NCBI RefSeq assembly: GCF_902506555.1
Contig: NZ_LR732707.1
Coordinates: 3,247,290-3,311,289 of the forward strand
Reading direction: 5' to 3'
DNA: 64,000 nt
From: Sphingorhabdus sp. 109
GTDB lineage: Bacteria > Pseudomonadota > Alphaproteobacteria > Sphingomonadales > Sphingomonadaceae
Part shown: in pieces, positions 3,941 to 22,849 of the stretch
Position numbering within the stretch: position 1 is the stretch's first letter
Layout of the letters: each line of letters begins with the position of its first letter
Program-made: the position numbers and the translations under genes
The notes under the pieces: generated by a model
Databases searched by the model: none
What the model was told of the DNA's origin: nothing
What the model saw: only the letters and a program-made list of their open reading frames with translations

Positions 3941-4222
3941 ATGGCATTCTGGACCTATATGCTGAAATGCGCGGACGGGCATTTTTATGTCGGGCATAGC
4001 GATAATCTGGAAGCGCGCGTTGCCGCCCATCAGTCGGGGACAATTGGCGGTTATACCCACTGCCGCCGCCCGGTGGTGCTGGTGTGGAGCGAATATTTCT
4101 CCAAACGTGAAGAAGCCATTGCGGCGGAACGACAGATAAAGGGCTGGTCACGAGCAAAAAAGCGGGCCTTGATTGATGGTGACTGGGGCTTGATTTCTCG
4201 CCTGGCGCGATCACGGTCTTGA
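3941..4222 (+). CDS. GIY-YIG domain nuclease-like protein
   Basis: A 93-residue single-domain protein of the GIY-YIG superfamily (the UvrC N-terminal / YhbQ-like type). The motif appears as TYMLKCADGHFYVGHS near residues 5-20. An Arg follows in DNLEARV, and the metal-binding Glu lies in AAERQIKGWSR near residue 64, so the catalytic set looks complete. These domains make single-strand breaks in DNA, but the role of the small stand-alone members is not settled. The gene sits exactly between two inverted repeat doublets of one family, which suggests it moves with, acts on, or helps copy those repeats. That link is inference. Confidence 0.88.
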   Translation: MAFWTYMLKCADGHFYVGHSDNLEARVAAHQSGTIGGYTHCRRPVVLVWSEYFSKREEAIAAERQIKGWSRAKKRALIDGDWGLISRLARSRS

Positions 4223-18528: not shown

Positions 18529-19332
18529 ATGAAAATTGACCATAAATTCTCGGCGCCCGGTGATTCGCACATGCCATTTGTCCACCCGGATCGCCCCGCA
18601 GCCCGCTTTCGTCCCCTGAAAGCGCTTCATCATTTTCGCGAACTGATCAAGGACAAGGAAGATACCGAACAGGTCTTCCATATTTTTGAATCGCTGCCGC
18701 GTCCCGGATTCCGCAAGGATGCCAGGAAATTTGTCGAAAGCGACAAGGGCAGGGCGCTGCTGCAAAGCGAGCCGGAACTGGCCCCGCTTCTGGATGATCA
18801 TGAACGTTTGCGCAAGATGCCGGCGGGCAGTCTGGCCCATGCCTATTGCGACTTCATGGAAAAGGAAGGGCTGAGCGCCGCCGGTCTGATCGCCGAATAT
18901 GACCAGTTCAGTCCGCGCAAATATGGCGATATGATCGAATGGTACGGTTTCCGCCAGCGCGATACGCATGACTTGCTCCACGTGCTTACCGGCTATGGCC
19001 GCGATGCGCTGGGCGAAGCGTGCGTCTTGGCCTTTACCTATGGCCAGAACCCGTCACTGGGCAATGTCTTCATCGCTTATGCCGCGGGTCTCAACATGAA
19101 GAAGCAGGTCAAGAGTGACGCGCCGATATTCAGCGCGATCCGCGAAGGCCAGAAAATGGGCAAGGCCTGTCCCAAGATCAACGAGGAATCGATCACCGAT
19201 CTGCTCGCCCAGCCGCTGGACGCGTTGCGCGAGCGGCTGCACATCAAGACACCGCATTTCTATCACGAAGCCCATGCGAAGTTCCGGGCCGGAAATGTCG
19301 ATCCATACGATATGCTGGCACAAACGGCTTAG
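18529..19332 (+). CDS. Coq4-family ubiquinone biosynthesis protein
   Basis: A 267-residue Coq4 homologue. The zinc-ligand signature H-D-x2-H-x11-E is exact: His147, Asp148, His151 and Glu163 in THDLLHVLTGYGRDALGE. Coq4 proteins work in ubiquinone synthesis, and recent work on the eukaryotic protein points to a role at ring carbon 1. In alphaproteobacteria lacking UbiX/UbiD a similar task would make sense, but that is inference. The start has no clear ribosome site, and the candidate promoter would give a nearly leaderless mRNA. An ATG at 18571 is an alternative. Confidence 0.85.
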   Translation: MKIDHKFSAPGDSHMPFVHPDRPAARFRPLKALHHFRELIKDKEDTEQVFHIFESLPRPGFRKDARKFVESDKGRALLQSEPELAPLLDDHERLRKMPAGSLAHAYCDFMEKEGLSAAGLIAEYDQFSPRKYGDMIEWYGFRQRDTHDLLHVLTGYGRDALGEACVLAFTYGQNPSLGNVFIAYAAGLNMKKQVKSDAPIFSAIREGQKMGKACPKINEESITDLLAQPLDALRERLHIKTPHFYHEAHAKFRAGNVDPYDMLAQTA

Positions 19333-19365
19333 AAACGCTTCCTCCTTATACCGATGCTATGGGAG

Positions 19366-19464
19366 GTGGGCCGCGAAGCGGCTCGGATGGGCAAGGTGCA
19401 CCAACACCCCTCGACCATCCTCCGGATGGTCCCCCTCCCCGAAGCCTCGCTTCAGGGCGAATTT
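19366..19464. repeat. Degenerate solo copy of the DUF559-associated repeats
   Basis: GGGAGGTG followed by a small hairpin (GGCCGC-GAA-GCGGCT) is joined to CACCCCTC, a hairpin (GACCATCC-TCC-GGATGGTC), the linker CCCTCCCC and a last hairpin (GAAGC-CTC-GCTTC). The linkers match those of the repeats flanking the DUF559 gene 0.5 kb away, while the hairpin stems differ in sequence. It lies between the convergent coq4 and DUF3052 genes and may also act as a terminator. Confidence 0.65.
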
Positions 19465-19465
19465 C

Positions 19466-19873
19466 TCAGCGGAATTCCTTGCGGATGACCAGTTTCAGGC
19501 CGGACCAGATCTCGTTCACGGCACAGACCTTGATATCGACAAATCCCATCGGCAGGGCGACTTCGCGGATCGTGTCTTCGCTGATGTCGGTCTCGACCTT
19601 GGACGCCTTTTTCGGCCAGCTCACCCACACCTGACCGGCGGGATCGATCATGTCACGCAGGGTAGTCAGATGCTTTTCCATCGCGTTCCGTTCGGTAACG
19701 AAAATATGGGCCGAGTGAAGGCCGGGCGACGGGACTTCATCCTCGGATAGGGTCAGTTCGCTATCCTCGATGTCGGCTCGGACACGGTCCGGCATGTCGA
19801 GAAACCAGACGCGCATGCCGTCCTTGAGGGAGAGTTTTTTGGCTAGCGGGGTATCCGAATATCCTGAAGCCAT
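19466..19873 (-). CDS. DUF3052 family protein
   Basis: A protein of about 135 residues of the DUF3052 family, whose function is unknown. Characteristic text is SGYSDTPLAKKLSLKDGMRV near the start, FVTERNAMEKHLTTLRDMID, and GQVWVSWPKKASKVETDISE followed by DTIREVALPMGFVDIKVCAV. The fold has been compared to small alpha/beta proteins without a catalytic site that I can point to. I prefer the ATG at 19873 because GAAAGG is nine bases before it; the ATG at 19882 would abut that ribosome site. It sits between two repeat-rich intergenic regions. Confidence 0.8.
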   Translation of the reverse strand: MASGYSDTPLAKKLSLKDGMRVWFLDMPDRVRADIEDSELTLSEDEVPSPGLHSAHIFVTERNAMEKHLTTLRDMIDPAGQVWVSWPKKASKVETDISEDTIREVALPMGFVDIKVCAVNEIWSGLKLVIRKEFR

Positions 19874-19987
19874 GATCGGCATCCTTTCGCATTAGATGAT
19901 TATCCACATCAACGGTTGGATGCCAGCGTGGTTCCCTTTCCTGTGCGTGTATCTGTTTCCGCTGGTTGGCGAGAAGCACGGCTGAAG

Positions 19988-20044
19988 CCCCTCCACCACG
20001 CTTCGCGCGGTCCCCCTCCCCATGCCTGCGGCACAGGGAGGAAA
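19988..20044. repeat. Outer repeat A, left copy
   Basis: It starts CCCCTCCACCA and has a small hairpin (CGC-TTC-GCG), the linker CGGTCCCCCTCCCC, a second hairpin (TGCC-TGC-GGCA) and the end CAGGGAGGA. The right copy is its inverted partner. The first stem differs between copies (CTGC/GCAG on the right) yet still pairs, so the folded shape is conserved. The 59 bp between this and the inner repeat hold nothing recognisable. Confidence 0.75.
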
Positions 20045-20103
20045 GGTGCGGCTTGACAGTTTTGGCCTGACCGTCCCTCATCACAGAATTTTATGTTACA
20101 TCT

Positions 20104-20160
20104 TTCCTCCCTGTTGCGCAGCAATGGGGAGGTGGCGCGCCGAAGGCGTGACGGAGGGGC
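20104..20160. repeat. Inner repeat B, left copy
   Basis: CCTCCCTG, a hairpin (TTGC-GCA-GCAA), the linker TGGGGAGGTGG, a hairpin (CGCC-GAA-GGCG) and TGACGGAGGGG. Its last bases (GGAGGGG) also serve as a likely ribosome-binding site for the DUF559 gene, so gene and repeat are physically merged. Confidence 0.75.
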
Positions 20161-20162
20161 AA

Positions 20163-20519
20163 TTGGCACAAACGACAAGACAAACCATCCTAAAGGCCAG
20201 GGAACTGCGCAAAACCATGATCAAGCCGGAGATCATGCTTTGGCAACAACTTCGTAAGAAGCCTCTCGGCATCAAGTTCCGGCGCCAGCACCCGATTGGC
20301 TCCTATATACTGGACTTCTGTTGTCCATCAGCAAAGCTGGGTGTCGAAGTCGACGGCCTGGCCCATGATATGGGCAATCGTCCAGAGCGTGACGAGCAGC
20401 GCGAGTGGGAACTGTCTCAAGAGGGCGTCGAAATCATCAGAATATCTGCGCAGGAAGTTCTCGATGATCCGGCAGATGTCGCCGACCGGCTATTGCGATA
20501 TATTCAGAGTCTGCGTTAG
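20163..20519 (+). CDS. DUF559 domain endonuclease-like protein (Vsr-related fold)
   Basis: A protein of about 118 residues with the DUF559 domain, related to very-short-patch-repair and other PD-(D/E)xK nucleases. The core is PEIMLWQQLRKKPLGIKFRR, then YILDFCCPSAKLGVEVDGLA, where the Asp of LDF and the E-V-D could bind the metal. It ends with VEIIRISAQEVL and a short helix. TTG is taken as start because GGAGGGG from the flanking repeat lies just upstream; GTG 20148 and ATG 20124 are also open in frame. The gene is bracketed by inverted repeats on both sides. Confidence 0.85.
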   Translation: MAQTTRQTILKARELRKTMIKPEIMLWQQLRKKPLGIKFRRQHPIGSYILDFCCPSAKLGVEVDGLAHDMGNRPERDEQREWELSQEGVEIIRISAQEVLDDPADVADRLLRYIQSLR

Positions 20520-20520
20520 G

Positions 20521-20641
20521 CCCCTCCGTCAGCCTTTCAGGCCGACACCTCCCCATTGCTGCGCAACAGGGAGCAAAATGGTCTTCCTCCCTGTGCCGCA
20601 GGCACGGGGAGGGGGACCGCTGCGAAGCAGTGGTGGAGGGG
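20521..20641. repeat. Inner and outer repeats B and A, right copies
   Basis: The B copy (20521-20575) and A copy (20584-20641) are inverted relative to their left partners and only eight bases apart. B pairs with its partner over CTCCCTGTTGCGCAGCAATG and beyond. Its other stem (GCC-TTTCA-GGC) has a different sequence that still folds. The A copy has perfect GTGCC-TGC-GGCAC and CTGC-TTC-GCAG hairpins and stops one base before the purL stop triplet. Confidence 0.75.
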
Positions 20642-22849
20642 CTAGTCTTCCATCCAGTCGCGGAAGAAACTTTCATTCGCTTCCCGCAGATCGGTAACCG
20701 CAACCGGCTTGCCGTTCAGCACCAGCTTGTCGCCCTTGACCTGTCCGATCTTCTCGAACGGCACTTTCGCGCGATCCAGATCATCTTCGTTGCGATAGGT
20801 GATGACATAGCGGCCCTGCGCTTCGCTGAAGGCAAAGGCGCTGGTCATCGGGTCAATTTCGGCGCCGAGATTGCCAGCCAATGCCATTTCGGCGAGCGTG
20901 ACGGCGAGGCCGCCGTCGCTGATGTCGTGGACGGCGGTGACCTTGCCGGCGGCGATCAGTTCGCGGACGATCCGGCCGGCCCATTCTTCATCCTTGAGAT
21001 CGACTTTCGGCGGCGGCCCATCGGTGCGGCCATGGATTTCGCGCAGCCAGGTCGACTGGCCGAGTTCCTCGTGATGGAACCCGATGGTCGCGATCAAATC
21101 GCCTTCCTGCTTGAAACCGATGGTCATCATCGTGTCGAGATCGTCGATCAGCCCGACCGCACCGATCGCCGGGGTCGGCAGGATCGCGTGGCTGATGCCG
21201 TCGGCGCCGGTGGTTTCGTTGTAGAGGCTGACATTGCCCGATACGATCGGCATGTCGAGCGCCTTGCAGGCTTCGCCCATGCCTTCGATCGTACCGACAA
21301 ATTGTGCCATGATATGCGGCTTTTCGGGATTGCCGAAATTCATGCAGTCGGTGGTGGCGAGCGGCTTCGCGCCGACCGCGCAGAGGTTGCGATAAGCCTC
21401 GGCAATCGCCTGCTTGCCGCCTTCATAGGGATCGGCCTTGCAGTAGCGCGGAGTGCAGTCGGTGGTGATCGCGAGGCCCTTGTTGGTGCCATGGACGCGG
21501 ACAACCGCGGCATCGCCACCGGAGCGTTGCGCGGTGTCGGCGCCGACCTGTGAGTCATATTGCTCCCAGACCCAGCGGCGCGAGGCGAGCGCGGGGCTGG
21601 CCATCATCTTGAGCAGATCGGCGCCGATATCGGTGCTTTCGGGCAGGTCGCCGACCGGCTGGACATTGATATGCGCGGCATATTCCTCGCGGGTCAGGTG
21701 CGGGCGGTCGTAAAGCGGCGCGTCGTCGGCGAGCGGGCTGAGCGGGATATCGCAGACGGTCTCGCCCTTGTGGGTCAGCACCATCCGGCGGCTGTCGGTA
21801 ACTTCGCCGATCACCGCGAAATCCAGTTCCCATTTGGTGAAAATCGCTTCGGCCATTTCCTCGCGGCCGGGTTTCAGCACCATCAGCATGCGCTCCTGGC
21901 TCTCGCTGAGCATCATTTCATAAGCGGTCATGCCGGTTTCGCGGCAGGGCACCTTGTCCATGTCGAGAATGATGCCGACTTCGCCGTTGGTCGCCATTTC
22001 GACGCTGGAGCTGGTCAGCCCGGCCGCGCCCATGTCCTGAATCGCGACAATCGCGTCGCTGGCCATCAGTTCGAGACAGGCTTCGATCAGCAGTTTTTCG
22101 GTGAACGGATCGCCGACCTGCACGGTGGGGCGCTTTTCATCGCTGTCATCGTCAAATTCCGCGCTCGCCATGGTCGCGCCGTGGATGCCGTCGCGACCGG
22201 TCTTGGAACCGACATAGACGATCGGGTTGCCGACGCCTGAGGCTGCCGAATAGAAAATCTTGTCTGAGTCCGCTACGCCGACGGTCATTGCGTTGACGAT
22301 GATATTGCCATCATAGGCCGGGTCGAAATTGGTCTCGCCGCCGACCGTCGGGACGCCGACGCAATTGCCGTAGCCGCCGATACCCGCAACCACGCCCTTG
22401 ACCAGATGCTTCATCTTCGGATGGTCGGGCCGGCCGAAGCGGAGCGCGTTGAGATTGGCCACAGGCCGCGCGCCCATGGTGAATACGTCGCGGAGGATGC
22501 CGCCGACGCCGGTTGCCGCACCCTGATAAGGCTCGATATAGGACGGATGGTTGTGGCTCTCCATCTTGAAGATCGCCGCCTGGCCGTCGCCGATATCGAT
22601 CACACCGGCATTCTCGCCGGGGCCGCAAATAACCTGCGGGCCGGTGGTCGGCAGCTTCTTCAGATGCAGGCGCGATGACTTGTAGGAACAATGTTCCGAC
22701 CACATCACTGAAAAGATGCCCAGTTCGGTAATATTCGGCTCGCGGCCCAGCGCATTCAATATGCGCTGATATTCCTCCGCATTGAGGCCATGCTCGCGCA
22801 CGGTTTCGGTGGAGATTTTGGGCTCGGTAATCATCGTGTCTGTGGTCAT
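20642..22849 (-). CDS. purL: Phosphoribosylformylglycinamidine synthase subunit PurL
   Basis: The 735-residue PurL of the multi-subunit type, which makes FGAM from FGAR, ATP and glutamine-derived ammonia in purine synthesis. Visible motifs include [54 protein letters not shown] and [16 protein letters not shown]. The glutaminase is not fused, so separate PurQ and PurS must exist; they are not in this window. The stop codon directly abuts the repeat element, which is therefore part of the purL 3' region. The 90 bp before the start separate it from a divergent isomerase gene. Confidence 0.97.

Follow-up and report, generated by a model that had tools for sequence, protein, structure and literature searches.

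Inverted hairpin repeats frame DUF559 nuclease genes of sphingomonads: a likely REPIN-like mobile family carrying a Vsr/EDxHD-type nuclease

A DUF559 nuclease gene of Sphingorhabdus sp. 109 is enclosed by inverted copies of a structured repeat unit. Gene-less copies of the same unit are scattered through the genome, some of them inside protein genes whose reading frame is unbroken, and on this ground we regard the units as a mobile repeat family. From the sequence comparisons, it appears reasonably likely that this family is REPIN-like, with a Vsr/EDxHD-type nuclease in place of the HUH transposase. The association of gene and units and the spread of the units are observed directly; movement driven by the nuclease is what we infer from them. 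Bacterial chromosomes commonly contain REP-like repeats, and RAYTs have been proposed as the enzyme for the GTAG kind. Among the papers listed in a literature search, with most subscription journals outside its scope, none linked DUF559 to such repeats.

In the window, that is the whole 64,000-nucleotide stretch of DNA analysed, the gene is framed in the order A-, B+, gene, B-, A+ (Table 1). This nested order was described in an earlier note on the sequence, with coordinates that are right within about 2 nt. The locus has a DUF3052-like gene on one side (family match E 4e-4, below the cut-off) and, on the other, the 3' end of a gene that we take to be purL. The inner arms (B/B') are 58 nt long and 86% complementary. 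The outer arms (A/A'), which had been noticed as nearly alike, agree at 97% over 37 nt without gaps and at 95% across 60 columns with a 2-nt indel. The common plan of the units, about 58 nt long, comprises a T-rich head, hairpin 1 (12 bp), a linker, hairpin 2 (7-8 bp) and the tail GGAGGGGC. The worn copy reported earlier is also real and consists of a B+/A- pair spanning 19338-19463.

Table 1. Repeat units and nuclease gene at the DUF559 locus, with the neighbouring gene-less pair (positions in the window)
Feature	Position	Strand	Match or genome coordinates
Worn B-type unit, left half of gene-less tail-to-tail pair	19338..19392	+	G000:C2:3266627-3266681, E 6e-5
Worn A-type unit, right half of that gene-less pair	19406..19463	-	E 2.9e-6
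Outer A-type unit, tail outward	19987..20044	-	E 8e-18
Inner B-type unit, tail gene-facing, GGAGGGG as candidate ribosome site	20103..20160	+	E 3.2e-17
DUF559 (PF04480) Vsr/EDxHD-like nuclease, 118 aa, TTG start	20163..20519	+	PF04480 E 4.9e-28
Inner B-type unit, tail gene-facing, starting directly 3' of the stop codon	20520..20577	-	E 1.3e-13
Outer A-type unit, tail outward, ending at the stop codon of the purL frame	20583..20642	+	E 3e-14

A role of the inner repeat as ribosome site, suggested in the earlier note, is reasonable because its GGAGGGG ends 3 nt upstream of the TTG at 20163 and this TTG aligns with ATG in relatives (e.g. L037 and L039). GGAG or GAGG is found in or near a unit, 3-15 nt upstream of an in-frame start, at 34 of 67 framed DUF559 loci (window gene excluded; the flank edges of L105 and L117 are misplaced). 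At the other loci inspected, including L277-L284, a single inner unit pair is the usual form, and an extra outer unit occurs in a few (L277, L279 and L351). The nested palindrome is not the general form of DUF559 loci.

The four window units are each predicted to fold as two adjacent hairpins, with z values of -2.6 to -4.0 against shuffles. For comparison, a unit of another family, taken from the L001 locus of the same genome, gives z -1.84, and 9 of 200 shuffles fold equally well. Thirty-six units found by motif scanning at purL loci L032-L045 were aligned, overlapping and doubtful extra matches being omitted. Covariation was counted in 14 B-type and 15 A-type units; the other 7 of the 36 have a different spacing and were left out, and the rows are kin, so that their cells are not independent events. 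Among the B-type units, pairing holds in 95.4% of cells, and both sides have changed in 7 of 20 pairs (reached by 4 of 500 shuffles). The corresponding figures for the A-type units are 98.2% and 5 of 19 pairs (1 of 500 shuffles). For both types, the covariation score is matched by none of 500 shuffles and pairing collapses in slid registers. A measure based on further pair types is weaker (33 of 500 shuffles for B-type, 12 of 500 for A-type), and B-type pair 33-49 is formed in only 4 of the 14 units. The exchange of CGC/GCG for CTGC/GCAG, pointed out earlier as preserving the hairpin, is thus one case of a wider covariation, in which compensating changes keep the stems rather than random substitutions breaking them.

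In these units, which our model R1 represents, linkers are fixed and stems covary. The conserved columns contain CTCC, GGGGAGG and GGAGGGG; GTAG is absent from them by eye. Conserved linkers combined with free stems suggest that the fold itself is what is read. The covariation would fit recognition of a folded single strand, DNA or RNA, as well as a cruciform or a transcript hairpin under selection. An Rfam scan of window positions 19300-20700 gave no match to a known structured RNA at gathering score; the three matches obtained, all to miRNA families, are far below their gathering scores. T-G and G-T wobbles are kept at stem 1 pairs 10-24 and 11-23 in most R1 units (by eye), a curious feature given that Vsr is a T-G mismatch nuclease. 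A Vsr-type mismatch substrate as a general idea was dropped because the other unit families pair without wobbles at these positions (by eye).

Searching the genome of Sphingorhabdus sp. 109 with the R1 model (cut-off E 0.001) gave at least 31 units at 15 or more places, four of the units being at the DUF559 gene; these counts are lower bounds because 150 of 1836 first-pass candidates were scored. The gene-less units make up at least 12 tail-to-tail pairs, with gaps of -2 to 45 nt, at least one head-to-head pair and at least one single unit. An A-type unit is joined to a B-type unit in 10 of the 12 tail-to-tail pairs listed (by eye). Among 32 genomes of the genus, this one included, 15 carry R1 units, from at least 3 to at least 43 each (150 candidates scored in each genome). 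The DUF559 subfamily of the window is present in 11 of these 15, ten times at purL (one copy, in G089, is broken) and once elsewhere, in G129, as a diverged copy (L348, 48% identity). The four R1-bearing genomes without the subfamily gene are G127, G130, G133 and G137, and three of these assemblies are less than 90% complete. In the 17 genus genomes without R1 units, no member of the subfamily was found when all full-length DUF559 hits were compared; none of these hits exceeds a score of 170 when compared with the window protein, and subfamily members reach at least 240. Shared descent contributes to this co-occurrence. An array of R1 units with a period of 208 nt is located at G124:C1:1936104-1936785.

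The occupancy of individual sites varies between relatives; site classes were assigned by eye, and genomes without the locus at a given site (2 to 6 of 32) are uncounted. At the 3' site of purL, the element with its gene is found in 10 of the 22 genus loci examined (30 fetched). Its direction is that of the window in 3 (G000, G128 and G126) and inverted in 7. Units alone, with no gene, are found in G127; in the other loci the site is empty or taken by a PIN-like module, a worn remnant or a palindrome of another kind. The comparison of purL 3' regions proposed in the earlier note thus yields some regions without the element, some with the gene inverted and some with other inserts, and the element, present elsewhere in copies, is not fixed at one place in all relatives. 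Three purL regions show particular arrangements. A PIN-type toxin-antitoxin-like module lies between purL and the DUF3052-like gene in L040 and L044 (G129 and G133; by eye). In L046 (G121), a CGTC-like CCTGAACTTGTTTCAGG inverted pair lies within the final 100 nt ahead of purL, at the 3' site that the DUF559 element takes up in the window. In L039 (G125), the 3' tail of purL is duplicated beside the element over 48 nt at 85%, possibly as a repair scar.

Gene-less R1 pairs are likewise present or absent among congeners at four sites. At the glyQ/glyS junction, 11 of 30 loci have an R1 pair, 11 are empty and 8 have other palindromic inserts. Of 30 loci examined within glyS, 18 are empty, 8 have R1 (with just a hairpin left in one), 3 have the L001-type repeat and 1 has another insert. 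The third site, in the 26 loci with both flanks (4 dropped), shows 7 R1 pairs, 4 other inserts and 15 empty cases; the R1 pairs flip here, being B+A- in 4 and A+B- in 3. At the dnaE2 site, 8 of 26 loci carry R1 and 12 are empty; two other DUF559-type repeats account for the remaining 6. The L001-family repeat is found at the glyS and dnaE2 sites of some congeners (by eye). GIY-YIG-type and other repeats also use some of the same sites (by eye), and we therefore do not claim a shared sequence specificity; permissiveness of the sites may decide occupancy.

Inserts inside genes leave the frame open. The R1 pair in glyS adds a net 34 codons and replaces about 18 nt of host codons; a plain target-site duplication is not seen at this site, where relatives are too diverged for exact scars. 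By alignment, length differences in glyS are divisible by 3 at 28 of 30 loci, including all 12 with an insert (that of G126 contains a run of N); the two exceptions, G138 and G143, are empty and reflect alignment gaps on codon reading. In dnaE2, the same is true of 25 of 26 loci, the exception being G126, whose insert contains a run of N. Frames containing inserts still match their families: glyS scores 682 with TIGR00211 (cut-off 300), ileS 773 with TIGR00392 (cut-off 621) and the error-prone polymerase 1380 with PRK05672 (cut-off 939). For ileS, the observation of an in-frame insert comes from the genome of Sphingorhabdus sp. 109 only. A single dnaE2 frame contains three R1 pairs in G120 and in G139.

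Framing is a general property of DUF559 genes. The 400-nt flanks of each gene were compared by best local alignment, one flank being reverse-complemented, and a locus was called framed at a score of at least 30; the sets are without purL copies except L116 and L117. Framing was found at 29 of 30 loci of the family, 26 of them scoring at least 50 (best 30 of a longer list). The 29 best loci of the genus gave 26 framed and 15 at 50 or more, and 24 further genus hits gave 17 and 11, which makes 43 of 53 overall. At class level, 20 of 30 loci are framed and 8 reach 50 (best 30 of a longer list). Because the family and class sets consist of top-scoring hits, mostly one per genome, a bias is possible. 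Scores below 30 remain for 10 loci in the class set and for 10 in the genus set; two of these genus loci have cut-off flanks. Shifted windows at the same loci reach a score of 50 in 2 of 178 cases (three DUF559 sets) and of 30 in 1 to 4 per about 60. A score of 50 is also attained by 26 of 206 mismatched pairs, in which the two flanks come from different family loci (five truncated loci left out), since the units of separate loci are alike; arms by themselves are therefore no proof of pairing. With the same test, 25 of 30 GIY-YIG family loci are framed and none of 30 ParE control loci. Inverted structured repeats thus frame DUF559 genes generally, as the earlier note had wondered, and GIY-YIG genes too; this supports its suggestion of a second nuclease-borne repeat system, parallel to the GIY-YIG one. 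The idea that the repeats carry generic cargo is countered by the ParE result.

Outside the chromosomes, 6 of the 11 plasmid DUF559 records examined (36 matched) have arms scoring 49 to 126. They come from Sphingomonas parapaucimobilis (two), Novosphingobium, Sphingobium, Pseudanabaena and Deinococcus. The unframed records are those of Synechocystis (25), Azospirillum (28), Picosynechococcus (29), Sinorhizobium (18) and E. coli (19). Several DUF559 genes lie within operons (L284, L290 and L353). On Sphingomonas plasmids, one DUF559 gene is found among transhydrogenase genes and one between sufB and sufC; on the Deinococcus plasmid, the gene is located between paaD and paaZ. The second DUF559 gene of Sphingorhabdus sp. 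109 (L001:1452-1890) lies inside a perfect 38-nt inverted repeat of another family, with dnaG-like and GatB/YqeY-like genes as neighbours (names by eye).

The unit type follows the lineage of the enzyme. A protein search in named genomes identified 13 loci, six in congeners and seven at 45-58% identity. R1-like units are found at all 11 subfamily loci outside model building (L277-L284, L348, L351 and L352), which are the seven named-genome loci, the plasmid loci L284, L351 and L352, and L348 of G129. The best unit at each of these independent loci has an E value of 1e-16 to 3e-5; L116 and L117 match R1 as well and helped to build the model. The subfamily with R1-like units spans Sphingorhabdus, Sphingomonas, Novosphingobium, Sphingobium, an Erythrobacter bin and others. 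At 9 of the 11 loci, the unit is in + orientation upstream and - downstream of the gene. In L282, the upstream flank is beyond the contig end and the downstream unit is present; in L348, the neighbouring units are reversed, with their heads toward the gene. Among the other DUF559 loci, only 2 of 111 match R1, weakly (L172, E 9e-4; L028, E 3e-3). These comparisons show that the unit type is cognate to the DUF559 subfamily. Similarity of proteins was also correlated with similarity of units at 63 of the 67 loci that have arms of at least 40 (L105 and L117 left out). The Spearman coefficient is 0.68 in the genus set (18 loci) and 0.27 over all loci, with 0 of 2000 permutations in both cases. Co-divergence is not significant in the family set, made of different genera (0.10, 29 loci, 277 of 2000 permutations), or in the class set (0.16, 16 loci, 229 of 2000). 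Enzyme and unit are thus clearly paired within lineages and no longer so across large distances.

The window protein scores 97.6 bits with the PF04480 profile (curated cut-off 20.6) and contains a conserved E-x-D-G-x-x-H. In an alignment of 88 rows (87 loci and the window; L105 and L119, cut short, dropped; L117 as a 66-aa part), E54, D56, G57, H60 and Q34, in window-domain numbering, are invariant, and D43 is found in 87 rows. The predicted model has a mean pLDDT of 85.9 and a pTM of 0.80, residues 68-72 being below 50. It matches NGO0050 (3hrl) and I-Bth0305I (3r3p) with E <0.001, the latter at E 2.2e-5 with Foldseek, and more weakly Vsr (1vsr, E 0.026). A profile match to 3r3p was also obtained with hmmsearch (E 1.3e-4). 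According to this model, the enzyme resembles the homing endonuclease I-Bth0305I and, less closely, Vsr; its DUF559 fold differs from that of an HUH Y1 transposase. A phage or plasmid origin was set aside since the matches are limited to 2 phage records at about 37% identity and 36 plasmid records, all below 60%. As to a defence system, the PADLOC matches are weak (DpdF, E 3.5e-4; mREase_II, E 2.2e-3).

The element shares with REPIN/RAYT systems its short structured repeats in inverted pairs, its many gene-less copies and a carrying gene flanked by units of cognate type. It differs in having a Vsr-like nuclease fold, whereas RAYTs are HUH enzymes with a catalytic tyrosine, and in its two-hairpin units of about 58 nt without GTAG. 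The Rickettsia palindromic elements (RPEs) are palindromic repeats inserted in frame within protein genes, and the inserts described here are alike in this respect; their sequences are unlike R1 units, and we know of no nuclease gene for RPEs, whereas one is carried here. RPE-4 and RPE-6 have been equated with CGTC REPs, which are described as mostly alphaproteobacterial, arranged in inverted pairs and sometimes intragenic, and are reported to lack a dedicated transposase (Di Nocera 2013; PMC3733652). The four CGTC REP families share a CGTC tag, an 8-9 bp stem and a CCA tail (PMC3733652). R1 pairs are similarly inverted and sometimes inside genes, and the window B-type unit, when reversed, shows CGTC at stem 2 (by eye). 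Against the published description of the four families, the A-type unit is without CGTC (by eye), and the 12-bp stem 1, long tail and fixed linkers do not fit. Among homing enzymes, I-Bth0305I is described in a review as forming a dimer on a target site close to 60 bp long (PMC3943268); it shares with the window protein the catalytic fold, as predicted here, and the conserved acidic/His core. The window protein, with its 118 residues, differs in being without the long DNA-binding part, in lying outside an intron or intein and in carrying structured repeats. DUF559 is also contained in Caulobacter VsrA, a proposed mismatch-repair nuclease (PMC12907096); to this and the weak fold match to Vsr is opposed the framing of the window gene by mobile-looking repeats. 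Segments of Legionella with a transposase and DUF559, and also GIY-YIG homing endonucleases, have been described as hotspots of recombination (PMC12308824).

How such an element might move can be outlined. The core carrying copy would consist of a + unit, the DUF559 nuclease gene and a - unit, with inverted unit pairs as gene-less derivatives; in the window, the core B+ gene B- probably entered an older head-to-head A-/A+ pair. The nuclease would recognise units of its own type, most likely in a folded or cruciform state, and would cut DNA. Break repair by the host would then copy the element into the cut, either complete or gene-less, in a homing-like manner, and no covalent transposase step would be involved. 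We consider cut-and-repair the most likely route because of the homing-type fold and because about 18 nt are replaced in glyS instead of a plain duplication. The flipped pairs and the flipped gene lend it support, as they are expected from break repair at palindromes. What counts against a nuclease-moved family is the proposal of VsrA as a repair nuclease (PMC12907096), the unframed loci, the missing co-divergence across genera and in the class set, the likeness of flanks between different loci, the reversed units of L348 and the R1-bearing genomes in which the gene is absent or, as in G089, broken.

The persistence of R1 units where the subfamily gene is missing would be natural if an HUH tyrosine transposase encoded elsewhere moved the repeats, as in REPIN/RAYT systems, with DUF559 genes as passengers caught between two of them. 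Gene-less inverted pairs and their placement within and between genes, like that of REPs in the description of PMC3733652, also agree with it. However, passengers should include other small genes, and none of the ParE loci is framed; the unit type tracks the DUF559 subfamily across genera, and GTAG is missing from the conserved columns by eye. We find this explanation unlikely.

The two other explanations leave the nuclease in place and change the meaning of the repeats. The enzyme could be a host repair or restriction enzyme of Vsr type, with the repeats as regulatory hairpins (terminator, ribosome site or mRNA stability) selected around a dangerous gene. VsrA with its DUF559 is a proposed precedent (PMC12907096), and unit tails can act as ribosome sites at the 34 of 67 loci counted above. 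This would leave unexplained the gene-less pairs in glyS, ileS and dnaE2, the empty sites of relatives, the inversion of the gene and the same units around related genes of other genera; it seems to us highly improbable. Alternatively, a free-standing homing endonuclease would act at allelic sites only, the repeats being by-products of repeated break repair at palindromes. The fold and profile match to I-Bth0305I, the occupation of conserved genes and the filing of a DUF559 gene with the EDxHD homing family by others (PMC9403480) all agree with such an enzyme. But units at 15 or more places in one genome are hard to reconcile with allelic homing, and simple homing does not need a conserved two-hairpin design, so that we give this explanation very little weight.

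Extending the nuclease-moved family beyond R1, it is possible, if not yet probable, that DUF559 nucleases mobilise a whole class of REP-like hairpin elements with lineage-specific units by cut-and-repair, parallel to a GIY-YIG class. If so, DUF559 and GIY-YIG nucleases could supply the missing enzymes for non-GTAG REPs, including CGTC REPs, and in-frame palindromic inserts in housekeeping genes may find an explanation. A nuclease of homing-endonuclease fold tied to cognate two-hairpin units would represent a different route for spreading small repeats, and would give a role to DUF559, a large family of unknown function. The question can be tested with one small protein and one 58-nt DNA.

Two observations concern the GIY-YIG loci. 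The flanks of some GIY-YIG genes look nearer to CGTC REPs than the DUF559 units do (L198, L205 and L207 have such flanks). The window itself contains a GIY-YIG gene at 3947-4162 (G000:C2:3251236-3251451; L195), with inverted CCGTTCGTCCTGAGCTTGTCGAAGGACG-type repeats on either side and a framing score of 49.
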